From IMG/VR virus record IMGVR_UViG_3300038435_000063, positions 1 to 49,572 of that record: a stretch of 49,572 nucleotides of DNA. One strand, 5' to 3'. Positions 16,740 through 48,629 of this stretch are shown here, piece by piece; the first letter of the stretch is position 1; every line of letters starts with the position of its first letter. The translations under genes and the position numbers were made by a program. The DNA comes from a virus. Under the pieces are notes generated by a model. It searched no databases and was not told the origin of the DNA. It worked only from the letters and a program-made list of their open reading frames with translations.

Positions 16740-19700
16740 TTATCCACAGCCTTTCGCTTTCCATTCGGGATTGCTGCCGGCAAGCCATTTAGTCCAGGCT
16801 CCCGCCTGCCATTCGGGGATCGGCTCGCCAGTCCATTCCTTGCCCGGCTTGGCCTTCCATTCGGGGATCGGCAGAGCAAGCCAGTCATCCGACAGTGCAT
16901 TCCATTCGGTCCAGGCATCCGCCTGCCATTCCTTGACCTTCGGGCTGGTCAATTCGGTCCAGGCATCTGCCTGCCATTCCTTGACCTTCGGGCTGGTCCA
17001 AGGCACCAGAGGAGCGGCAACCCAATCCGCACAAGGCTTGGCCAAGGTCCAGGCGGATGAACTGCTACTGAAACTACTGCTGGAACTGGAACTGCTGGAT
17101 GAACTGCTGCTGGAATAGCTGCTACTGGACGACGATGACGAACTGCTGCTTGAGAAACTGCTGCTGGAACTGGATGAAGAACTACTGCTGGAACTGGATG
17201 AACTTGAGGAACTTGAGCTACTAGACGAACTGCTGCTGGAACTACTGGAGCTTGAGCTACTAGACGAACTGGAACTGGATCGGCTTGACGACGATGAAGA
17301 CGATGAACTACTGCTGGAACTTGAAGACGAACTACTGCTCGAACTTGAAGACGAACTAGATGAACTACTGCGCGACGAACTGCTTGACGAGGACGAACTG
17401 CTGCTGGAACTTGACGAGCTTGAAGAACTGCTAGAACTGCTGGACGAAGAACTGCTGCTGGATGAAGACAGCGAACTGCTGCTGGAACTAGAAGAGCTTG
17501 AGGAACTGCTGCTAGAACTAGAAGAGCTAGAACTACTGGACGAACTGGAACTGGATCGGCTGGATGAAGACGAAGAACTACTGCTTGAGAAACTGCTGCT
17601 GCTGCAACCGACGATGTTGTCTCCAGCCTGATACGAGCCTATCACCCATCCAGCTACTTGCGTTACTGCGTTGTTATTTGTTAAGCCATTGGACCCGATG
17701 TAGTCTTTGCCAAGGTTGCCCGCGTTGTCCATGTCCCATCCGGACACGACGCCCCACGCGCTCAACTGGCTCGCGGAGATGTCTTTGGCTGCCCGCCCGG
17801 TGCCGCCATTCCAAAGGCTGTCCCGGATACCAGTAATCAGGCTGGCAATTGCCGTGGACGGTTTCAGGAAGACAACGGCATCGATTTGCCCGGTCCAGAG
17901 CGCGGCAGGATCGTTGAACCCGCCGATGACCATTGCTTGGTTGTTCGTGGTTGTCGTGAAGCTCCGGGTAGCGGTAACGAACGCACTGCCGTCAACGCTG
18001 ATGCCAATCTGGTTATTGGCCACATCCTGATAACCGATGGCGAAATGCCAGAGGCCATCAGCCATGCCGGCAACCGATCCCTGGACTTCCTGGAAACTGC
18101 CGGCGCTGTTGATACCGAACCGAGCGCGCTGGATGCTGGTCTTGTAGATGTACCAGTCGCCTGCGCCGGCTCCGAAAGTGGACTTCGCAACCAAGCCCCG
18201 GTCATTGGCGTTTGTCGTCTTGAACCAGCAAGCCACAGCGAAATCGACGTTGCCGGTCTGCAAAGTGGCATTGCTGGCGATGCTCAGATATTGCGTGTTC
18301 GCCACATTGAAGTTGCCCGCACCAGCAGCCAGGATGATGGCAGCGCAGGACTGAGACGACGAACTACTTGAACTGCTCTGGCTGCTACTGGATGACGAAC
18401 TCCTACTGGAACTGGAAGAACTGGACCGGCTAGAACTGCTGGAACTTGAACTTGACGATGAACTGCTGCTGGAAGACGACGAACTGCTTGATGATGAACT
18501 GCTGCTGGAGCTTGAGGAACTACTGGAACTGCTCAGGCTTGACGACGAGGACGAACTACTGCTGGAACTTGAGGAAGAACTGCTTGATGAACTGCTGCTT
18601 GAGAAACTGCTGCTGGAACTTGATGACGAACTACTGCTAGAACTAGACGAGCTTGAACTACTGGATGAACTGCTGCTGGATCGGCTTGACGACGATGAAG
18701 ACGATGAACTACTGCTGGAACTTGAGCTACTTGAGGAACTGCTTGAACTACTGGATGACGAACTGCTACTTGAGAAACTGCTACTGGACGATGACGACGA
18801 GCTAGAACTTGAGGAAGAACTGCTTGACGAACTGCTGCTGGAACTAGAGGAACTGCTTGAGCTGCTGCGCGATGAACTGGAACTTGAGGAAGAACTACTG
18901 CTGGAACTTGAACTACTTGAGCTTGAGGAACTGCTGGAACTGCTCAGGCTTGAACTGCTGGATGAAGACGAACTGCTACTGGAACTTGAACTACTTGAGG
19001 AACTTGATGAACTGCTGCTGGATCGGCTAGAGGACGAAGATGAAGAGGACGACGACGAGGATGAACTGCTACTGGAACTGCTTGAACTTGAGGAACTGCT
19101 GGAACTACTGCTAGAGAAACTGCTAGAACTTGAGGAAGAACTACTGCTTGATGACGAAGACGAACTACTACTGGAACTGCTGCTTGACGAAGACCGGCTA
19201 GAGCTACTGCTGGACGATGAACTACTACTGGAGGACGAACTGCTTGAGCTAGACGAGCTAGAACTTGACGAAGAACTGCTGCTTGAGAAACTGCTGGAAC
19301 TACTGGATGAAGAACTGCTTGAAGAGCTACTGCTGCTTGACGATGAAGACGAACTGCTGCTGGATCGGCTAGAGGACGAGGACGAGGACGAACTGCTACT
19401 GGACGAAGACGAGCTTGAACTACTGGAAGAACTGCTGCTGCTAAGGCTACTGCTTGACGACGAAGACGAGCTTGAACTTGACGAACTACTGCTGGAACTT
19501 GAACTGCTGGAACTGGAAGACGAGCTACTGCTTGAGCGGCTAGACGACGAACTTGATGAAGAGCTACTGCTAGACGATGAACTGCTTGAGCTTGAGGAAC
19601 TACTGGAACTGCTCAGGCTGCTGCTTGAACTGGACGAAGAACTTGACGATGAAGAGCTACTGCTGGAACTACTTGAAGAACTGCTGCTGCTCAGGCTTGA

Positions 19701-20081
19701 ACTGCTTGACGAGGACGAACTGCTGCTGGAACTGCTCGAGCTTGAGGAACTGCTTGAACTGCTACTGGATCGGCTAGAGGACGATGACGAAGACGAACTA
19801 CTGCTGGAACTAGAACTGCTAGAACTAGAACTACTTGAGCTTGAGGAACTGCTGGAACTGCTCAGGCTTGAACTACTGGACGATGACGAACTGCTGCTGG
19901 AACTTGAACTGCTTGAGCTACTTGACGAACTACTGCTGGACCGGCTTGAAGACGATGAACTGCTGCTGGAACTTGATGAAGACGAGCTGCTGCTCGAACT
20001 AGAACTGGATGAACTAGAAGATTGTCCGAAGGGCAGCCCGCAGAACGGCAACCCAGCAATTGCGTCAAATGAAAAGCCCAC
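16740..20081 (-). CDS. Giant poly-serine protein with LamG/lectin-like domain
   Basis: 1113 residues. After about 20 residues (GLPFCGLPFGQ) comes a nearly pure serine tract of over 500 residues, interrupted about every 25–30 residues by one L, R or F. A LamG/concanavalin-type domain follows (about 575–825: LSIASNATLQTGNVDFAVACW, WHFAIGYQDVANNQIGISVDG), then a second serine tract and a C-terminal tryptophan repeat (KEWQADAWTE ×2, IPEWKAK, IPEWQAG). TCN and AGY serine codons are mixed, so the tract is kept as protein rather than by DNA slippage. GTG at 20081 is chosen because CTACATA lies five bases before it. A long fibre or glycosylated stalk is inferred. A hairpin (AAGCCCAC/GTGGGCTT) overlaps the start. 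Confidence 0.7.
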   Translation of the reverse strand: MGFSFDAIAGLPFCGLPFGQSSSSSSSSSSSSSSSSSSSSSSSSSSRSSSSSSSSSSSSSSSSSSSSSSSSSLSSSSSSSSSSSSSSSSSSSSSSSSSSSSSSRSSSSSSSSSSSSSSSSSSSSSSSSSLSSSSSSSSSSSSSSSSSSSSSSSSSLSSSSSSSSSSSSSSSSSSSSSSSSSRSSSSSSSSSSSSSSSSSSSSSSSSSSSSSSLSSSSSSSSSSSSSSSSSSSSSSSSSRSSSSSSSSSSSSSSSSSSSSSSSSSFSSSSSSSSSSSSSSSSSSSSSSSSSSSSSSRSSSSSSSSSSSSSSSSSSSSSSSSSFSSSSSSSSSSSSSSSSSSSSSSSSSSSSSSRSSSSSSSSSSSSSSSSSSSSSSSSSLSSSSSSSSSSSSSSSSSSSSSSSSSRSSSSSSSSSSSSSSSSSSSSSSSSSSSSSSFSSSSSSSSSSSSSSSSSSSSSSSSSSSSSSRSSSSSSSSSSSSSSSSSSSSSSSSSFSSSSSSSSSSSSSSSSSSSSSSLSSSSSSSSSSSSSSSSSSSSSSSSSSSSSSSSSSSRSSSSSSSRSSSSSSSQSSSSSSSSQSCAAIILAAGAGNFNVANTQYLSIASNATLQTGNVDFAVACWFKTTNANDRGLVAKSTFGAGAGDWYIYKTSIQRARFGINSAGSFQEVQGSVAGMADGLWHFAIGYQDVANNQIGISVDGSAFVTATRSFTTTTNNQAMVIGGFNDPAALWTGQIDAVVFLKPSTAIASLITGIRDSLWNGGTGRAAKDISASQLSAWGVVSGWDMDNAGNLGKDYIGSNGLTNNNAVTQVAGWVIGSYQAGDNIVGCSSSSFSSSSSSSSSSRSSSSSSSSSSSSSSSSSSSSSSSSSSSSLSSSSSSSSSSSSSSSSSSSSSSSSSSSSSSSSRSSSSSSSSSSSSSSSSSSSSSSSSSSSSSRSSSSSSSSSSSSSSSSSSSSSSSSSSSSSSSSSSSSSSSSSFSSSSSSSSSSSSYSSSSSSSSSSSSSSFSSSSSAWTLAKPCADWVAAPLVPWTSPKVKEWQADAWTELTSPKVKEWQADAWTEWNALSDDWLALPIPEWKAKPGKEWTGEPIPEWQAGAWTKWLAGSNPEWKAKGCG

Positions 20082-23077: not shown

Positions 23078-23797
23078 ATGGATAAATTACTACCTAAACA
23101 AGATATGCCTAACGATAGTCGTGTTATTGATGTTACCGGGCAGCAGTTCAACGACCTCCACGCTGATTACTATGTCGGACAAGTGGCTTTCGGCAAACGC
23201 TTGCTCCATTGCTGGCAATGCACATGCACGTGCGGAACGACATGCATCGCAGCTGGTTCGTACATGCGACAACAGCGAGTCAAGAATTGCGGCGGCAATG
23301 CTCACCCACACAATTCAACCGTGCATGGCTTTTGCCCTAGGGGCAAGGCCATCCCGGAATACTGGATTTGGATGGCAATGAAGAACCGCTGTAATAACCC
23401 GAAAGACAAGAATTACCATCGGTACGGCGGGCGAGGTATTACGGTTTGCGAACGCTGGCAGCAGTCCTTTCCGAACTTCCTTGCGGACATGGGGCATCGT
23501 CCCAATCCTTCCTTGACGCTGGATCGGCTGGACAATGACAAGGGTTACTGCCCTAAAAACTGTGCCTGGCGAACCCGAAAGGAACAACAACGCAACCTCC
23601 GAACCACGACGATGGTAGAATACGAAGGCAAGACGGTTGCTCTGAATGATCTAGCGGACGCGCACGGCATTCATGAAAGGACTGTCAAGGGGCGGCTAAA
23701 GATGGGTTTTGCCTTGGATGAAGCCTTGACTATGCCGGTTAGAACTGAACCCGAAAGGGATATCGCAACCGGGCAGTTTCTCCCATTCGCACCGTGA
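23078..23797 (+). CDS. HNH endonuclease with C-terminal HTH-like module
   Basis: 239 residues. The N-terminus has VTGQQFNDLHADYYV and CTCTCGTTC. The central HNH-type domain reads YWIWMAMKNRCNNPKDKNYH, GRGITVCERWQ, TLDRLDNDKGYCPKNCAWRT and EQQRNLR. The C-terminus is one copy of the YxGKTVALNDLADAHGIH module also found in tandem in the genes at 20825 and 35682. This is a free-standing homing endonuclease lying between the glycosyltransferase and the capsid genes. Confidence 0.8.
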   Translation: MDKLLPKQDMPNDSRVIDVTGQQFNDLHADYYVGQVAFGKRLLHCWQCTCTCGTTCIAAGSYMRQQRVKNCGGNAHPHNSTVHGFCPRGKAIPEYWIWMAMKNRCNNPKDKNYHRYGGRGITVCERWQQSFPNFLADMGHRPNPSLTLDRLDNDKGYCPKNCAWRTRKEQQRNLRTTTMVEYEGKTVALNDLADAHGIHERTVKGRLKMGFALDEALTMPVRTEPERDIATGQFLPFAP

Positions 23798-30719: not shown

Positions 30720-32660
30720 TCAGCCAACTCGACGCTTGGGACGCCGAACGTTTACTACCGGATTCCACGGTTGTACAGCATGGAATTCCGATGCCAGGAT
30801 GTAACGCAAGGCATCAACGCAATGGTTATCCTTGTCCACGGGCTTATCAAGGAACTCATGCCATTGGTACGTCCGGAGTTCCCGAATCAGATTGGTGCAG
30901 TCCCTGGAAATGTAAAGCTTAGGCTTGCCGTCTGCCGCGAGCTTGAGATGCTGCTGGACTACATTGATGCCCGCCTTGATATCCTTCTTGGCTGGCGTGT
31001 TCGGCAAGCCCCGGATGCGGAACTCTGCACGCTCCTGCAAACCGCCGTAGTCCGCATAGGTCATCCAGTTGTCGTTCCAGCTCTTCGCCTTGATCGCTTC
31101 GACGTGTTCCTCAATTGTCGCTTCCCTACGGAAGTATTCATCGTAAACATAGTAGCGCCCTTCCCGGTCACGCGCTGCGAAAATGCAGACGGTCGGATGG
31201 TTGTAACCGAAGTCCAGCCCGCGAAAGTGGGGCCAGTCATCCGGAATGTGCCTTGGCTGGATAACATGAATTGCCGGGTTGAAGGACTTGTAAACCGATC
31301 CGTAGTAGCTGCTAAACGCGCCGATCCTTCTCGCTTCCCGTTCTTCCTCAAGGCAGTTGTCCAGAATGCGACGGATGGCACCGGGGGCAACCTTGTCATT
31401 GCATTCCCCATTCATCCGGTAAAACTTCCAGTCCGTGTAGCGCTCTTGGTTTTCGTAAATCTGTTCTATGTACGGATCGGGCCTAAGTGGCGTAAGGCTG
31501 TAAATCTGGCTGCCGGGGTAATGGTAATCACGGCACCGCGCCCAAATGGACCCAAGCCGATCCGGGCTGATTTGTTCGTCAATCCAGAAACCGCCGATGG
31601 ACGATGCTTCAAACTTCTCTTGCTCGCTTTCGCCAGACTTCATTTCAATAACCCAGTTGTTACCGTGCGCATCGTTTTTCAGGATGACGGTAAGGGGTTG
31701 CTGCTGTCGCTGGCTGTACCACGTGTAACCGGCTATTGCGCTTCGCGGAATGAACCGGGACATGTGGGTTTGCCAACACGTGCCAATCGATTTATCGAAG
31801 GTTGGGCCAATGATCCAGATTGGACACATCGGGCGAGGTGGCGGGGTTTCCAGGATGTGCGTTGCCATCTTTGCGGCAGCCACGATGGATTTACCGCTGT
31901 TGTGATGCCATACCCCGCTCAGTTCGTAATTGTGGTTCTTGGCAACGGTTAGATCATAGAACCGATCTTTTTTCACATAGCGAACTTTGGTAATATGGGG
32001 GCATGAAGCAAAAGTATCCTTGGCCACTAGAGGCAATGAAAGACCTCTACACGTCTGGCCTTGAAGTTGTGCATCACATTGACAATAACCCTGGCAACAA
32101 TGCCATTGAAAACCTCGCCCTGTTTGCGAGCAATGCCGATCATCTGCGGGAAACCCTGGCTGGTAAATGCCCGAACTGGAGCGCAGCGGGCAAGGCTCGG
32201 ATAGGACGTGCTTTAGAGGCAGCCACTGACCGGCGGCGCACAAAACCCGATGCGCCAAAGTCGCCACGAACTGGCAACCATTGGACAGCGTAAACTCGTA
32301 TAGGTCGGCAATGCCCTTCACGAATGGCTTTGACGCCAGTGCAATCTCCCGCTGCCCCGTCTGCTCATTCAACGAATGGACGTGGAACGGTCCTGCAATT
32401 TGGTCCAGCCTGCAATACTCTTCCGCTATCGGATCATAAAGTTCCGTCCAGCCCGCAAGACAGCCCGTTCCACCTAAGCAACAAGCGATGCCGTTGAACT
32501 TCTCGGTTAGAAAACTGGTCTGCTGGTCATAAAGTTCCGGCTGGTCAGGACGAGGCTCGAAGTTCCGCAACGGTAGATTGAGCGCATCGTGAAGCAAGGC
32601 AATTAGCTTCTTGTCCTTGCTCTTCAGGATCGTTTCAATTTCGTCGTCAGTGAACTGCAT
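30720..32660 (-). CDS. Terminase large subunit interrupted by an intein
   Basis: 646 residues as read; 458 after removal of a 188-residue intein (residues 67–254). The exteins join as LGGTG + SGKSIVAAAKM, a complete Walker A motif. Walker B is GGFWIDEQ. The C-terminal nuclease has FRGLDFGYNHP, YADYGG and DKDNHCVDALRY, with the three expected acidic residues. The enzyme packages DNA into the prohead, using ATP and cutting DNA. It follows the small subunit gene by 15 bases. CTAGATA (32665–32671) lies four bases before the ATG. Without splicing the ATPase would lack an intact P-loop. Confidence 0.9.
   Translation of the reverse strand: MQFTDDEIETILKSKDKKLIALLHDALNLPLRNFEPRPDQPELYDQQTSFLTEKFNGIACCLGGTGCLAGWTELYDPIAEEYCRLDQIAGPFHVHSLNEQTGQREIALASKPFVKGIADLYEFTLSNGCQFVATLAHRVLCAAGQWLPLKHVLSEPCPLRSSSGIYQPGFPADDRHCSQTGRGFQWHCCQGYCQCDAQLQGQTCRGLSLPLVAKDTFASCPHITKVRYVKKDRFYDLTVAKNHNYELSGVWHHNSGKSIVAAAKMATHILETPPPRPMCPIWIIGPTFDKSIGTCWQTHMSRFIPRSAIAGYTWYSQRQQQPLTVILKNDAHGNNWVIEMKSGESEQEKFEASSIGGFWIDEQISPDRLGSIWARCRDYHYPGSQIYSLTPLRPDPYIEQIYENQERYTDWKFYRMNGECNDKVAPGAIRRILDNCLEEEREARRIGAFSSYYGSVYKSFNPAIHVIQPRHIPDDWPHFRGLDFGYNHPTVCIFAARDREGRYYVYDEYFRREATIEEHVEAIKAKSWNDNWMTYADYGGLQERAEFRIRGLPNTPAKKDIKAGINVVQQHLKLAADGKPKLYISRDCTNLIRELRTYQWHEFLDKPVDKDNHCVDALRYILASEFHAVQPWNPVVNVRRPKRRVG
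31899..32462 (-). other. Intein in the terminase Walker A motif
   Basis: 188 residues. Block A begins at C1 (CLAGWTELYD). Block B is TLAH near residue 68. Blocks F/G read FYDLTVAKNHNYELSGVWHHN, here split as FYDLTVAKNHNY and ELSGVWHHN, with Asn188 and the next extein residue Ser. All splicing residues (Cys1, block B Thr/His, His-Asn, +1 Ser) are present, so it should splice. No in-frame endonuclease motif is seen; residues about 95–150 are an odd Gln/Cys/Gly/Ser-rich linker. That stretch is the complement of a plus-strand HNH gene (32003–32293). Confidence 0.9.
32003..32293 (+). CDS. HNH endonuclease encoded antisense within the intein
   Basis: 96 residues. VVHHIDNNPGNNAIENLALF and SNADHLRETLAGK match the conserved core of the HNH_3-type phage endonucleases (HH, xxN, H). 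It lies wholly inside the intein coding region but on the other strand, opposite intein residues 57–153. TAATAT six bases upstream and GGGGGC before the ATG give a possible start signal. It would serve as the homing enzyme for the intein in trans. Confidence 0.75.
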   Translation: MKQKYPWPLEAMKDLYTSGLEVVHHIDNNPGNNAIENLALFASNADHLRETLAGKCPNWSAAGKARIGRALEAATDRRRTKPDAPKSPRTGNHWTA

Positions 32661-36302: not shown

Positions 36303-39296
36303 TTAGAAAGGCAGTTCAAAACACCACTGACCATCCTTCTTTTGCTCAATTCGTTTGGCGATTGCCGGCGGTAGCCTGGACTTCTCGTTATTGGTCAGGG
36401 CGCGAAATGACACGGTTTCGTAGCGGTGTCCGGAAAGCGTCTTGGTTTGCACCTCGCAAGGAATGTTCAGGGGGATTAGCCCGCCCGATAGGGCTTCCAG
36501 CGAATTAGGGGACGATGTAGGGGACGATCCCTTAAATAGATCGTCCCCGTTTTTGACCAATAAAGACGGGCTTAGGGACGATGGGGGACGATGGGGACGA
36601 TCTTTTTGCATACTGTGTGTGTCTCCTAGTGTGTCTCCGTTTCTTTCATCTCTCGAAACACTAGTATGTAAAAGATCGTCCCTATCGTCCCCATCGTCCC
36701 TTGAGCAGTGTTTATGCGGGTCTGCGCTAGGGACGATCTTTTCGAGAGATCGTCCCCATCGTCCCCCCTCATCGTCCCCATCGTCTGCCGAACAGGCTTC
36801 CCGCCGATCCTGGACGGTAATAGCGCGTTTGCCGCCGGACTTGCACTTATCAACCAAGACGCCGATGGCCCGCAAGTCGGGCTTGGCCCGACGCAGTTCG
36901 CTGGAGAGAACGTTGGTATGTTTCGGATACCGGGGCTGCCGTAGCTCAAGATCGGTGGCATGGCTGGCCAGCGTTTCCGCCAAGTCGGTTGCGGTGCCTT
37001 TCCAATCTTTAACCTGGGAATGATCCAGCCAGCGAATCAGGACCGTGGCAACTACACTGGCTTCCAGCGCCATGCGCCGCAATTCTTGCCGATGCTCATG
37101 GTAGGCTGGCACGAACTGCCCGGCGAAAGCGGTCCCAAGCTCGCAAGCATGAATCCAGTTTTCAGCCTGCGCCATTCGGGATTTACGAGCCAGGTTACAG
37201 CTGTTCTCGTTCTGCAACCCGGAAACCAGCGCATCAAGAATGCCGCCCAGGATGGCAGGTTGCGCCCGTTCAAATTCCGGGATGAACTCGGTTTCCGCCT
37301 TGCGTTCTTCTTCGGTCAGTTCGGGGCAGACAATCTTGATTAGCCGGTCGAGGAGGTCAGACGATTCGGCGAAGTCCGGGATGCCATTCAGGATGACCGG
37401 GCGGCATTCTCCGTAAATCTTTTCCTCGTCCTGCTGGTAAAAGCCCCGTGTCGCATAGCCGCTGCCGGTGACCAAGGAAGCAATGGCATCGGACAGCCAT
37501 TGCGGCAGCGAAGACACGTTATCAAAAGCCAGGAGGTAGTTGTTCTGGGCAGCTGTGGCCATGTCGCCTAGATCGCGGTGCAAGCCCCGGAGTTCGGCTT
37601 TGGCGACAGGATCGACCAACCGCCGGACCAAACGGCACAAGGTACTTTTGGCGCTCCCCGTTTCGCCGCCGACCATCAACCCGAAGTATGGACCCTGCCC
37701 CGAATAGCACGACAACAAGAACCCACGCAGCAAAATCCAATCCGAATCGGTCAGGTTGACAAATTTGCGCATCTGGTTCAAATCGCCACTGACCGGCAAA
37801 GGCAATGCTGCCGCATTCTGCGTCCGGAAGAACTTGACCGGGCAATCCTTGACCACGGACCAGCCCGTTTTCATCACCTTGGCAATTTCGCCGCCCGGTT
37901 GGTTCAGGTCGATCCAGATGACGTCCTCGCACCGGGCGATGCGTCTATAAACTTTAGAAACCGGGGCATCCAGTGCCAGGGCGGTAAAGGTATCAATTAC
38001 CTCGTCCAGAACGGTGCGCCCAATCACGGCAGCCAGGTCGTAGACTTTGCGGGAAACCCATTGCCGAAAGGCAGTGGAAGCAATCAGGCAATCGACCTTC
38101 CTGCCCTTTACCTGAATCGTGCAGCAAGGCAAGTCATCGGGGGTCTGCCAAAGTTCCACCTCAGCCCGCAGTTTCTCGACCAGCATCACGGACTGCTTGA
38201 CCTTTTTGCCTTTGCCCTCGCTGCCTTCCACGGCATTGGCTGCCGGCTCGTACTTGGCCCGGAAGTCCTGCCAGCCGATCTTTGCACATCGGTTATGCGA
38301 ACAGCTATAACCCTTGGTGCCATCGGTCCAGACCATGACAGTAGCAGCCTTGTCCGCTTCCCCGCAGAAAGGGCATTTCTCCAGCAGCCAGCGCTTGGCA
38401 TATTTGCCACTCGCGGGCTTCTCAAAATCAACGTGTATTTCGTGCTTCGCAAGAAAGGCTTCTACCCATGCAACGCTTGCGGAACTGTCCCCCGTGGGCG
38501 CTGGTCCTGGCTGGCCCGATCCTGATTCCTTCACCGCCTTGGGCTGCTCTGGACTACCCGCCAAGGCTTCCAGCAGTTCGCGCGGGACCACTTCCAGGGC
38601 TGCCGGAGCTTCCAGGATTGCCGACAACCGATGCGGTCTGTCCGGCAAGTCATCGCCCTTCCGTACCGCCGTGCCATATAGTTTGTTGATCCTGGACGGG
38701 TTGAAGACGGTGCAGTCGACGGCAATGTCGCCATCGCCGAACCGGGCATGCAGGGCTTTCAAGCAGCGCTCAATCAGGCTGATGTTTTCTGCCGTTCGCT
38801 CCAGCTGGACCGCGTAAAACAGATGCCCGCCGTTGCCGGAATCAGCCAGGATCGGCACGGGCCAACCTAGGCCATCCAGCCAGTCGCGGATTTGGCAGGC
38901 TTTGCGAATGGCGGCATCATGTTCTTCGTTCGTGGATGAAATCCCGGCAGGGCGTTGCCAGTCGCAATCAACCAGCATCCGCAGTATAAACTTTATCTCC
39001 GCGTCCGACGTGGTATGAACAGCCCGGAACTCTAGCCGGTTGTAGGCTCTGGCCCGAACCGCACCAATGCACGGATTCAAGGTCAGGTAAACTGCCGGCG
39101 CGCTGTACTGCTCGGCAACCATTTCCGCAGCTTTGGCGAGCTTATCAAGATCGTCATAATAGCCGCTGATGGTGCCATTCTTACCGCATTTCGGAGCGCG
39201 GAGTTCATAGACTTCGCCCGGCAGGCACCAATAGGCTAACACATCACGAATAGAAAATTGGGGTTGCGTTTTTGTAGAATTGTCGCTATTATTCAT
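36303..39296 (-). CDS. Primase–helicase replication protein
   Basis: 997 residues from ATG 39296 (MNNSDNSTKTQPQFS). The N-terminal part (about 90–250: LMLVDCDWQRPAGISST-like LVDCDWQRPAGIS, ADSGNGGHLFYAV, DIAVDCTVFNPSRINKLYGT) is an archaeo-eukaryotic-type primase. A zinc finger follows near residue 310 (CPFCGEADKA ... CSHNRC). Then comes a helicase with Walker A GGETGSAKST near residue 540 and Walker B LLAFDNVSS, like the D5/SF3-type partner. The C-terminus is acidic and low-complexity (ADDGDDEGG), where the DNA holds 13 octamer repeats. It would start and unwind phage DNA replication. Confidence 0.8.
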   Translation of the reverse strand: MNNSDNSTKTQPQFSIRDVLAYWCLPGEVYELRAPKCGKNGTISGYYDDLDKLAKAAEMVAEQYSAPAVYLTLNPCIGAVRARAYNRLEFRAVHTTSDAEIKFILRMLVDCDWQRPAGISSTNEEHDAAIRKACQIRDWLDGLGWPVPILADSGNGGHLFYAVQLERTAENISLIERCLKALHARFGDGDIAVDCTVFNPSRINKLYGTAVRKGDDLPDRPHRLSAILEAPAALEVVPRELLEALAGSPEQPKAVKESGSGQPGPAPTGDSSASVAWVEAFLAKHEIHVDFEKPASGKYAKRWLLEKCPFCGEADKAATVMVWTDGTKGYSCSHNRCAKIGWQDFRAKYEPAANAVEGSEGKGKKVKQSVMLVEKLRAEVELWQTPDDLPCCTIQVKGRKVDCLIASTAFRQWVSRKVYDLAAVIGRTVLDEVIDTFTALALDAPVSKVYRRIARCEDVIWIDLNQPGGEIAKVMKTGWSVVKDCPVKFFRTQNAAALPLPVSGDLNQMRKFVNLTDSDWILLRGFLLSCYSGQGPYFGLMVGGETGSAKSTLCRLVRRLVDPVAKAELRGLHRDLGDMATAAQNNYLLAFDNVSSLPQWLSDAIASLVTGSGYATRGFYQQDEEKIYGECRPVILNGIPDFAESSDLLDRLIKIVCPELTEEERKAETEFIPEFERAQPAILGGILDALVSGLQNENSCNLARKSRMAQAENWIHACELGTAFAGQFVPAYHEHRQELRRMALEASVVATVLIRWLDHSQVKDWKGTATDLAETLASHATDLELRQPRYPKHTNVLSSELRRAKPDLRAIGVLVDKCKSGGKRAITVQDRREACSADDGDDEGGRWGRSLEKIVPSADPHKHCSRDDGDDRDDLLHTSVSRDERNGDTLGDTHSMQKDRPHRPPSSLSPSLLVKNGDDLFKGSSPTSSPNSLEALSGGLIPLNIPCEVQTKTLSGHRYETVSFRALTNNEKSRLPPAIAKRIEQKKDGQWCFELPF
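36508..36779. repeat. Thirteen copies of GGGACGAT/ATCGTCCC in 272 bases (candidate origin iterons)
   Basis: Forward copies begin at 36509, 36521, 36575, 36585, 36594 and 36730. Reverse copies begin at 36540, 36675, 36684, 36693, 36749, 36758 and 36771. Neighbouring copies are spaced 9 to 12 bases apart, as in iteron arrays. They lie at the 3' end of the primase–helicase gene, in a stretch encoding a low-complexity linker. An origin of replication bound by this or another phage protein is inferred. Confidence 0.75.
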
Positions 39297-39306
39297 ATAT
39301 AGTAAT

Positions 39307-39354
39307 ACTCCTTGTTGGTGTGCGTAATACTCCTTGGTCTTACAACACTCCTTG
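39307..39354. repeat. Three repeats of ACTCCTTG upstream of the primase gene
   Basis: ACTCCTTG begins at 39307, 39329 and 39347. On the minus strand each reads CAAGGAGT, a perfect ribosome-site sequence; only the first lies at a usable distance from the ATG at 39296. The other two could be operator sites or decoy ribosome sites. Confidence 0.55.
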
Positions 39355-39390
39355 GGTTTTCTGGTTTCTTTGTTTGTTTTCAATTTCACC

Positions 39391-45093: not shown

Positions 45094-47073
45094 ATGCTTC
45101 AGCCCAAGCCCGGAGATCGCTGCTGTTCCTATATCCGCTGTTCCACTACCGAACAATCTAGCGACGGCTATTCGGTGGAACGGCAAGACAGTTCGCTTGA
45201 GGGTTGCGAGCGAAAACTGAACATCAAGATTGCCAAGGTGTTCACGGACGAAGGCGGCAAGCGCTGGAAGTTGTCAAGCCGTCCCGATTTTCACAAGCTC
45301 TGGAACGAGATTGCTGCCGGGCTTTGGGATTGGGTCATCGTGGACAGCCAGGAACGCTACGGCACGGAGAACGCCTTCCAGTGGGGATCGTTTTGCGACC
45401 ACTTGCTCCGGCATGGCTGCAACCTTTGGGCTATCGCTGAATCGCGATGCCTGACGGACCCGGATGACATCGGCGGGGTTATCCTTGGCAATGTCAATGC
45501 GGTCCTTTCGTCAAAACACATCCTCGATAAATCCCGAAGCGTCATGCAGGCCAAGCATCTAATGGCCAAGGAAGACAGGTATACCGGCGGGCTATTCCCC
45601 TACGCCTACGACGTCGCCATCTTCCAGGGCAAGACCGATCAGGAACTTTGGCGCATCTATCTGGTGTCTAGCGTTCTGGGTGACTACTACACTGCCCGCA
45701 ATGGCAAGCGCCGCCGGAAGCGGGTCAGCACATACCGCAAGATCATGCCGGACGGATCGTATACCGAGCAGCCGTCATTCCCTGCATATGAGGACCACGA
45801 TACCGCCCGCTGGGTCATCACCAACGATCAGGACCGTCTAAAGGTACTGGCGTTGATTTTTGACCTCAAGAGCCAAGGCAAAGCGGATAATAAGATTGCC
45901 CGGACCCTGAACGAAATGGGCATTCCGACGATGTATGGCAAGGTCTGGAACCAGTCCGACATTGATAACATTTTGACGAACCCGAAATATCATGGCGAAA
46001 AGATTTACGGCAGACGCTGCCATTCCCCGTTTCATGATGTGGTCAATGGGCAGGTTGAACGAGTTTCCAAACCGCAACCTAGGGCTGCTGCCGAAATCGT
46101 TCGCCACAAGGTAGATTGCCTGATCGCTGATGCCGTCTGGAAGGACATTCAAGAACTGAAAGCCGAAAAGCGGACGGTCGGCATTCGGGGCCATAACCTT
46201 TGGTTGAAACCGTTCCTTTACTGCGCCGACTGCAAGCAGCAGATGCGAGCAGACCGCCGCGAGCAGGTTTATTACTGCGCAACCCATCAGGATCAGTCAC
46301 GGGCTGGCTTGCCCACTTCTTGCAAGCGGAACAGCCTTCGCCATGCCAAAGCGGAGGAACTGGTCCTGCGCTACCTTGCTGATGTCGGCAAGGATATTGA
46401 AGCCCTGACCAGCCCAATTCAGCCCCTGCCTGAATCGGCGAACAATCCGAAGCGGGAACGGCTTTGGCAACTGATTGAGCGGATGCATGAGTTCATGGGG
46501 CGGCATTGCGACGGCAACATGGTCAACGATTACCTGGCGTTCGTGGAAACTCGCCAGCGCAAGGGCGAAACGGGTTGCAAGCCGCCGGGGCTGGACCTTT
46601 ACGAGTTCGTCTTCGCCCGCAAGCAAACCCGCCTTACCGCCGAACTGGATCAGAAGGAAGCCGAGCATGCCGACATGGTTGCCGGGTTCCTGAAACTGAC
46701 AAGCCCGCTGGCCATCCAGAAGGCCAACGAAATGATGGGCAGCCTGGAAGCGGAAATTACCCAGCTGCGTGAAGAGGTCCAGCCGATCCATCATGAACAA
46801 GAGGCGCTGCTGTCTGAGATTGAGCGGATGAAAATTGCAGCGGAAGAATTGCACCGGCAGATGACCCAGGACGATGGCCAGCGGAAGGCGGCAGCGCTGA
46901 GAAACGTGGTTGATCAGGTCGTTTGCACTTTTCGGGATAATCCTCTTGCGAGGAAAAAACACACTGGTAGAATGAGTAGATCGAGGCTGGTCGAGGTGGC
47001 AGTCCTCCCCCGAAAGGGTGGCAGGGTAGCGACTTACGACTTGTCCGGAATCCATTGTGTCACGTTGACGTAG
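45094..47073 (+). CDS. Large serine integrase
   Basis: 659 residues. The catalytic domain begins CCSYIRCSTTEQSSDGYSVE with Ser17. A recombinase domain follows (ARTLNEMGIPTMYGKVWNQS), then a zinc ribbon (CADCKQQMRADRREQVYYC ... C near residue 410) and a C-terminal coiled coil (about 500–620), the usual plan of large serine integrases. It would join attP and attB and needs a directionality factor for excision. A strong AAGGAGGT site precedes the ATG. It lies at the right end, next to the presumed attR. Confidence 0.9.
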   Translation: MLQPKPGDRCCSYIRCSTTEQSSDGYSVERQDSSLEGCERKLNIKIAKVFTDEGGKRWKLSSRPDFHKLWNEIAAGLWDWVIVDSQERYGTENAFQWGSFCDHLLRHGCNLWAIAESRCLTDPDDIGGVILGNVNAVLSSKHILDKSRSVMQAKHLMAKEDRYTGGLFPYAYDVAIFQGKTDQELWRIYLVSSVLGDYYTARNGKRRRKRVSTYRKIMPDGSYTEQPSFPAYEDHDTARWVITNDQDRLKVLALIFDLKSQGKADNKIARTLNEMGIPTMYGKVWNQSDIDNILTNPKYHGEKIYGRRCHSPFHDVVNGQVERVSKPQPRAAAEIVRHKVDCLIADAVWKDIQELKAEKRTVGIRGHNLWLKPFLYCADCKQQMRADRREQVYYCATHQDQSRAGLPTSCKRNSLRHAKAEELVLRYLADVGKDIEALTSPIQPLPESANNPKRERLWQLIERMHEFMGRHCDGNMVNDYLAFVETRQRKGETGCKPPGLDLYEFVFARKQTRLTAELDQKEAEHADMVAGFLKLTSPLAIQKANEMMGSLEAEITQLREEVQPIHHEQEALLSEIERMKIAAEELHRQMTQDDGQRKAAALRNVVDQVVCTFRDNPLARKKHTGRMSRSRLVEVAVLPRKGGRVATYDLSGIHCVTLT

Positions 47074-47114
47074 CGTGACGGGCTAGAGCCTGCGGCGATC
47101 GTCAAATTCTGTTT

Positions 47115-47121
47115 CCCGATC
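47115..47121. other. attR: Candidate attR core (CCCGATC)
   Basis: CCCGATC matches 1391–1397. It lies 42 bases after the integrase stop, a usual place for an attachment site. The symmetric GTCAA (47101–47105) belongs to the phage side. Confidence 0.4.
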
Positions 47122-47157
47122 GCTTGCAGGGTGGAACTAGCGAAAGGAGGTGGTCTA

Positions 47158-47190
47158 GTGTGTAGTGGTAAACAGGTGCGGCTGCTTTGA
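47158..47190 (+). CDS. Possible leader peptide (10 residues)
   Basis: GTG start, MCSGKQVRLL, with AAAGGAGGTGG upstream. It stops inside a hairpin. In the uninterrupted chromosome it would follow the promoter-like sequence at 1263. No run of regulatory codons is seen, so amino-acid attenuation is not supported. Confidence 0.3.
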   Translation: MCSGKQVRLL

Positions 47191-47231
47191 CGCGGCCGAC
47201 GGGCTGCCGTCGGAAGCAGCCGCAAGTTTTT
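47178..47231 (+). terminator. Nested hairpin with T run
   Basis: GCGGCTGCTT pairs with AAGCAGCCGC, with an inner CCGACGG/CCGTCGG stem, followed by a T run. It could be an intrinsic terminator or the structured end of a host leader RNA. Confidence 0.55.
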
Positions 47232-47235
47232 AGTA

Positions 47236-47273
47236 GGGAACCCCGGCTTCTATCTGGCCGGGGTTCCCCTTGT
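47236..47273 (+). terminator. Rho-independent terminator (12-bp stem)
   Basis: GGGAACCCCGGC pairs with GCCGGGGTTCCC around nine bases, followed by CTTGTTT. It follows the previous hairpin closely. Confidence 0.7.
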
Positions 47274-47440
47274 TTCATACCTTGATGGCAACCATGACCC
47301 GCGCAGCCGATAACCTGGCACTCCCGACCCGGACCGCAGGCCCGCGCGGCGGCGCGTTTGCTTTTTGGTACTTTTACTTTAGCCCCAGGCAGGGCAGTTC
47401 CGGGATTTAGTCCATCGTGTCTGAATCGCAGCCGACCACG

Positions 47441-47476
47441 GCCCTGGAACTTCCCAAAGGTTCCAGGGCTTTTTTT
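47441..47476 (+). terminator. Rho-independent terminator before aroF
   Basis: GCCCTGGAAC pairs with GTTCCAGGGC, followed by eight T's. It would isolate aroF from upstream transcripts. Confidence 0.85.
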
Positions 47477-47496
47477 GTTTTCAGAGCTGTCAGTGG

Positions 47497-47587
47497 TCAG
47501 CTCTCAGCTTTCAGCCAGCAAGTCGAGTTGCGGCACGCCGCACGACGCGGTTCAGTGGATAGGCAGTGGCTGAAAGCTGAGAGCTGA
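47497..47587. repeat. 21-bp-arm inverted repeat upstream of aroF
   Basis: 47497–47517 and 47567–47587 are exact reverse complements (core CAGCTCTCAGCTTTCAGCC) with a 49-base loop. It looks like a dispersed REP/MITE-type element of the host. Confidence 0.75.
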
Positions 47588-47615
47588 TCGCTGACGGCTC
47601 TCCAGGAGATTTCCC

Positions 47616-48629
47616 ATGATCGTCGTCATGAAGCCCGGCGCCACTCCCCAGCAGATCGAGCACATCAAGGCCGAGATCGAACGGCTGGGGCTGCGCAATC
47701 ACGTCATTGTCGGCACCGAGCGCACGGTCATCGCCGCCCTCGGCGAGAAGCGCGACGGCGCCAAGCAGAGCCTGGAAACCGGGGAAGGAGTGGAGAAAGT
47801 GGTCCCGATCCTCGCACCCTACAAGATGGCCAGCACCGAGGTAAAGCGCGACCGCACCGTCGTGACCTCGCTCGGTCTGTCGGTCGGCGGCAGGAAGATC
47901 GGCGTGATTGCCGGTCCTTGCTCGGTGGAGAGCAAGCAGCAAATCCTGGAGATCGCCCACATGGTCAAGGCAGCCGGTGCCGGCGGCCTGCGCGGCGGGG
48001 CCTTCAAGCCCCGCACCAGTCCGTACAGCTTCCAGGGCTTGAAGGAAACCGGCTTGCAGCTCCTGGCCCTGGCCCGCGAGGAAACCGGGCTGGCCATCGT
48101 CACGGAAGTCATGGCCCCGGAACATGTGCCGATGGTGGCCGAGCATGCGGACATCCTACAGGTCGGCGCGCGGAACATGCAGAACTATCCGCTGCTGGAA
48201 GCTGCCGGTGAATCGGGGTTGCCGATCCTGCTGAAGCGCGGGCCGTCGGCGACGATGGAGGAGTTCCTGCTGGCGGCGGAATACATCCTCAAGACCGGCA
48301 ACACCAACGTGATGCTCTGCGAACGCGGCATCCGCACCTTCGAGGACCACACCCGCTTCACCCTGCCGCTGGCCACCGTGGAGTACCTGCATCAGACCAC
48401 GCATCTGCCGGTCGTCGTCGATCCCAGCCACGGCACCGGCAAGGCCAGCCTGGTCTCGCGCATGGCAGTCGCTTCCGTCGCGGCGGGCGCGGACGGCCTG
48501 ATCGTCGAGGTGCATCCGAACCCGGAGAAGGCGATGTCGGACGGCTTCCAGGCGTTGACGCCGCCGGTTTTCCTCCAGATGATGGCCGATTGCCGGCGGG
48601 TAGCGGCGGCGGTGGATCGGGAGATGTGA
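47616..48629 (+). CDS. aroF: 3-deoxy-7-phosphoheptulonate (DAHP) synthase
   Basis: 337 residues. It joins phosphoenolpyruvate and erythrose 4-phosphate in the first step of aromatic amino acid synthesis, in the cytosol. An N-terminal ACT-like regulatory part ([20 protein letters not shown]) precedes the barrel. Diagnostic motifs are [43 protein letters not shown], and VDPSHGTGK. The layout fits the type I beta DAHP synthases. AGGAGA precedes the ATG. This is a host gene, intact, just outside the prophage. Confidence 0.95.

Follow-up and report, generated by a model that had tools for sequence, protein, structure and literature searches.

A putative iteron-type replication origin overlapping the 3' end of a phage primase-helicase gene

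Most work on helicase initiators that recognise their own origin has dealt with satellites, SCCmec elements and animal viruses. In PICIs, the origin directly follows the 3' end of the initiator gene and invariably contains two sets of iterons flanking an AT-rich region (PMC6092414). The Rep protein of SaPIs uses its C-terminal domain to recognise the iterons that directly follow its gene, to which it seems to bind as two hexamers (PMC7581432). The putative origin of pRN1 is located 3' of the primase-helicase gene (PMC4234260), and that of phage lambda lies inside gene O (PMC6022878). Finally, binding of RepA from pFP11 to the iterons of this plasmid has been reported (Zhang et al. 2008, according to a passage of PMC3583192).

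Here we analyzed a virus record from IMG/VR (the window, 49,572 bases in full length) and describe a repeat array that we consider, with a probability of roughly 0.83, to be an iteron-type replication origin belonging to the phage itself, which overlaps its initiator gene at the 3' end and is read by the product of that gene. The kind of element is already known. What is new are the setting in a full-size phage, the fusion to a PrimPol, the in-frame array, its mirror symmetry and how broadly the arrangement extends, covering phages as well as plasmids from two domains of life.

As the original prediction had it, the octamer GGGACGAT or its complement is present in 13 perfect copies within 36509-36778, clustered and in both orientations, in the 3' part of a primase-helicase gene, the 1028-aa ORF on the minus strand (Table 1). 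Within clusters, octamers are spaced by 9, 10, 12 or 13 bp from start to start, and no octamer with one mismatch was found within 36450-36850. In dinucleotide shuffles of the whole 49.6-kb window, the word was expected a mean of 1.29 times, with a maximum of 5, and the sole copy elsewhere in the window (the 14th, at 23496) fits chance.

Table 1. Position of the features of the locus within the window.
Feature	Coordinates	Strand	Basis or remarks
Primase-helicase (putative initiator) gene, 1028 aa, GTG start	36303..39389	-	ORF; AEP and D5-like folds by model
AEP PrimPol domain, about residues 44-278	38556..39260	-	Model match 6zp9; invariant residues
D5/SaPI-Rep-like AAA+ helicase part, about residues 400-863, Walker A GGETGSAKST	36801..38192	-	Model; plasmid/viral helicase homology
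C-terminal winged-helix-like domain, presumed octamer reader	36807..37007	-	Conserved end of family; weak word tracking
GGGACGAT octamers	36509, 36521, 36575, 36585, 36594, 36730	+	
GGGACGAT octamers	36540, 36675, 36684, 36693, 36749, 36758, 36771	-	
Putative origin: 13 GGGACGAT octamers, mirror arrangement	36509..36778	both	
Outer left set: 36509+, 36521+, 36540-	36509..36547		Mirror partners 36758-, 36749-, 36730+
Inner left triplet: octamers 36575, 36585, 36594	36575..36601	+	
73-bp AT-rich spacer, putative melting site	36602..36674		Between inner triplets
Inner right triplet: octamers 36675, 36684, 36693	36675..36700	-	
Outer right set: 36730+, 36749-, 36758-, 36771-	36730..36778	mixed	

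Beyond what had been predicted, the array is arranged as a dyad. Twelve of the 13 octamers form six mirror pairs with midpoints at 36637.0-36638.5 (about position 36638), octamer 36771- being the unpaired 13th copy. When gaps and orientations were shuffled, about 1 in 1000 arrangements reached this six-pair symmetry (P = 0.001). As in the layout of PICIs, two inverted iteron-like triplets flank an AT-rich spacer, which here is 60% AT and falls among the 2.6% most AT-rich windows of equal length in the record. It is bordered on both sides by an inverted CTTTT(T)(G/A)CATACT sequence, present as CTTTTTGCATACT on the left and as an inverted near-copy, CTTTTACATACT, on the right. GC skew across the window, which is confounded by gene direction, gave no clear signal.

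Given this dyad symmetry, one could argue that the element acts mainly as a folded structure, forming a long hairpin or cruciform where the gene ends, with the octamers as no more than its stem. There are precedents for it: the pRN1 replicon depends on a stem-loop of 100 bp located 3' of the primase-helicase gene (PMC4234260), and RepA from pWTY27 footprints on a long inverted repeat of its iteron (PMC3583192). The array does fold strongly as a single strand (z of -12.9 versus shuffles), but opposed arrays of one word must give such folding. Across the dyad, identity is 48/48 in the octamer columns and just 43/75 in the remaining ones, and the repetition of the octamer far exceeds the needs of a stem. 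Besides, many relatives (L082, L093, L094, L104) have mostly direct, unmirrored arrays. We consider this explanation very unlikely.

Some 30 bp separate the last conserved domain of the protein from the start of the array, which lies inside the ORF rather than after it. The octamers could hence have been selected as protein, forming a low-complexity acidic C-terminal tail whose codons repeat by accident. An acidic low-complexity linker had indeed been described here, and this holds for the five copies that encode GDD or RDD; the remaining eight read as SSP/SSL (3), RPP/RPH (2), IVP (1) and GRW/GRS (2). The same perfect octamer is read in five strand/codon-phase combinations on the coding strand, giving five kinds of peptide with zero mismatched copies, which indicates that the DNA rather than the peptide is constrained, in agreement with the original prediction. 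Relatives retain an array built from another word and encode a different peptide there, or have a stop codon ahead of it; in many of them it is non-coding, past the stop codon, so that the position is kept and the coding status is not. Loss of the octamers with retention of the acidic protein had been named as the pattern that would speak against selection on DNA, and the relatives found, none of them close to this phage, do the reverse, keeping an array and not the acidic stretch. Selection on the protein is thus hardly credible, and the overlap between putative origin and coding sequence offers a neat example of selection on DNA acting on a protein tail.

Regarding the protein, searches in Pfam, PHROGs and NCBIfam gave no useful match. 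No DUF3987 domain (Pfam PF13148) was detected in the record, and the protein had no Pfam match to D5_N-DUF5906 (PF08706 / PF19263) at E-values up to 1, despite its D5-like fold. A sequence search of the PDB returned mostly Walker-A matches to ABC transporters, which we discarded. Structural models were more informative. The N-terminal part models as an AEP (pLDDT of 87), with the cyanophage S-2L PrimPol (6zp9) as its best match (Z of 16.3, rmsd of 2.8 over 174 residues), and the catalytic DxD and SGNGxHL residues are invariant. The helicase model (residues 400-870, pLDDT of 89) has SaPI5 Rep as its best match among solved structures (Z of 19.1, rmsd of 5.3-5.6 over about 370 residues), a likeness of fold only, with an identity of about 10%, followed by vaccinia D5 (Z of 17.4). 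The conserved part ends in a domain with the pattern WPxTxxxLSxxLRRxAPxLRxxG(I/V), which we take as a winged helix from its predicted elements and by analogy. According to these models, the initiator would be a D5-like AAA+ helicase with a putative C-terminal DNA-binding domain.

Other features of the window are worth recording. The terminase large subunit gene (30720-32660, minus strand) appears to be split by a mini-intein in its Walker A motif (GGTG / CLAGWTELYD...VWHHN / SGKS), and a match to PF14890, below the cut-off, lies just before the terminase domain. A 1113-aa ORF (16740-20081, minus strand) consists largely of polyserine tracts, with long serine runs broken by single R, L or F residues, surrounding a globular segment that looks LamG-like; it also has a W-rich repeat near the C-terminus, and gave no Pfam match. 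At 45094-48629, a large serine recombinase gene adjoins a DAHP synthase gene in a GC-richer stretch, which suggests the right boundary of a prophage. Within the phage region, 33385-34080 (minus strand) encodes a second protein of serine recombinase type, similar to resolvases/invertases.

To retrieve relatives we used the helicase protein alone, and the resulting loci were then checked for repeat clusters. Neither viral_contigs nor genome_contigs contained close relatives of the window protein, and no DNA match to the window was found in the phage collection. Using tblastn on plasmids, we identified homologous helicases with about 25-34% identity. Among these, pH6Ac from Methanothrix carries a dense array of GGAGGCGGT/GGAGTACAT that lies within coding sequence. 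Dense arrays situated where the gene ends, or further on, are found in a plasmid from Chlorohelix (Chloroflexota), with the word GTGACGCT, in pSTS2 and pFP11 from Streptomyces, with GGGACGCA, and in Streptomyces cellulosae and Actinacidiphila, with GTGACGC. A second cluster of short repeats (AACTTTGC, 7 copies) was observed upstream of the replication gene of pH6Ac (L068, about 350-700).

Scanning viral contigs with the protein alone retrieved 80 loci. Most of the closest relatives among them have a densest repeat cluster that begins no more than about 100 bp past the conserved domain, and the private words include CGGACGCA, CGGACGAT, GACGGTCA, GGTGACG, TAGACGGT, CTGACGGT, GGTGTAGC and GGAACGCT. 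At least six copies of one 7-mer were present just after the helicase/C-terminal domain in 20 of 42 loci, and in all 20 this count was unequalled by any other 400-bp window tested in the same locus. A distant marine group and the plasmid relatives L069, L070, L072 and L073 showed no array. Mirror symmetry was strong only in the window and in L078, with a P of 0.03 in L096 and borderline values in L068 and L071, so that a universal symmetry was discarded as unsupported outside of these cases. The AT-rich spacer recurs: an inverted gap of 40-130 bp was present in 20 clusters, and in 15 of these the spacer exceeds 90% of the equal-length windows of the locus in AT content. AGAGA or TCTCT was also observed in 9 of 18 array spacers, versus 1.6 expected (window 36602-36674, L044, L051, L068, L071, L074, L078, L096 and L190).

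We then compared words and proteins across 19 non-redundant relatives, with words chosen by hand. Word similarity correlated weakly with identity in the C-terminal domain (r = 0.215, P = 0.03), and no such trend was seen for the remainder of the helicase (r = -0.04, P = 0.60). At the level of sequence comparison, this points to the C-terminal domain as the probable reader of the octamer. The window locus and its relatives amount to many natural pairs of initiator and origin word, in which a code between C-terminal domain and word is directly testable.

A scan of viral contigs for GGGACGATNGGGACGAT gave 60 loci, mostly with single pairs; most of those with one GGGACGAT pair are unclustered and probably due to chance. 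Dense GGGACGAT clusters were nevertheless found just 3' of helicase genes that do match D5_N-DUF5906 in Pfam (L042, L051 and L061) and just 3' of an AEP-AAA_25 primase-helicase (L039). The word hence adjoins different families of helicases and is not tied to one reader. The exact inverted double array of GGGACGAT had zero matches in genome_contigs, from which we conclude that this precise arrangement is rare. Arrays at the end of the gene are also present in AEP relatives with a helicase part unlike that of the window, such as L178, L190 and L162. In L178, an AT-rich spacer is flanked on either side by AGCCGGG, present in 11 copies. The arrangement is therefore wider than the helicase family of the window. 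Downstream of another AEP relative, 14 copies of AACCTGC form two opposed blocks (L211, 7275-7700).

The presence of the same word beside different families of helicases would also be compatible with the octamers being operators, or a partition (centromere-like) site, bound by a phage repressor or a ParB-like protein to regulate transcription or segregation, with replication starting elsewhere. Arrays of short sites in both orientations are typical of both. However, across phages and plasmids the position is fixed at the 3' end of the primase-helicase gene and not at a promoter, the AT-rich spacer between inverted arrays recurs, and no ParA or ParB gene was recognised in the subset of window proteins scanned. 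Moreover, among the array-bearing relatives is pFP11, for which the passage cited above reports an initiator that binds its iterons. For this last reason, iterons beside their own initiator, as originally predicted, are the best explanation of the array, and we regard an operator or partition site as unlikely.

If the array is the origin of the phage, replication would start there as follows. The C-terminal winged-helix-like domain would read GGGACGAT, and copies of the initiator would assemble on the mirror-image arrays flanking the 73-bp spacer. Two helicase rings facing opposite directions could thus be loaded, the AT-rich spacer would be melted, and the fused PrimPol would prime. More tentatively, and with slightly less than even chances in our estimate, the locus may belong to a rep-ori module that spans phages and plasmids of Bacteria and Archaea, in which the C-terminal winged-helix-like domain of a PrimPol/D5-like helicase and a private 8-9-bp word (usually with GACG) diverge together. 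Copies of the word would surround an AT/GA-rich melting site where the gene ends at its 3' side, in many cases within coding sequence and here mirrored. That such a module is widespread and so far unnamed is a proposal we hold with the same reserve. The locus and its relatives suggest a sequence rule for finding the origins of phages and plasmids, namely searching the 3' end of primase-helicase genes for an array of a private 9-bp word.

In order to contextualize these results, we compared the locus with the systems that it most resembles. It shares with the rep-ori regions of SaPIs and PICIs (SaPIbov1, SaPI1, SaPI5 and EcCICFT073) a D5-like helicase as initiator and an origin-like array directly 3' of the initiator domains. 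In contrast to these helper-dependent satellites, the phage record has its own terminase and Mu-type portal genes, so we do not classify the element as a PICI, even if its origin would work like that of one. The helicase also differs in being fused to a PrimPol and in lacking a Pfam match, besides its low identity to SaPI5 Rep, and the array differs in lying inside the reading frame, with a 9-bp period and a GACG core. Among plasmids, pFP11 and pSTS2 from Streptomyces have a homologous helicase (about 25-32% identity over the domain), a GGGACGC array and an AT-richer spacer; in them, however, the PrimPol is a separate gene, and the array of GGGACGCA words is found several hundred bp past the domain, after the stop codon. 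The comparison with pWTY27 and pFP1 is one of analogy. The pH6Ac plasmid from Methanothrix harundinacea has a PrimPol-helicase fusion and an array in the 3' coding region, in both orientations and with an AT-richer spacer, but it is an archaeal plasmid whose array consists of the words GGAGGCGGT and GGAGTACAT and has a putative function. The AEP-helicase replicons of the pRN1 type present a primase-helicase with a winged-helix domain and an origin directly 3' of the gene, although the element required in pRN1 is a single stem-loop of 100 bp and not an array of iterons. Finally, phage lambda also has its origin embedded in the coding sequence of its own initiator, with the difference that lambda O is neither a helicase nor a primase and works with P to recruit DnaB.
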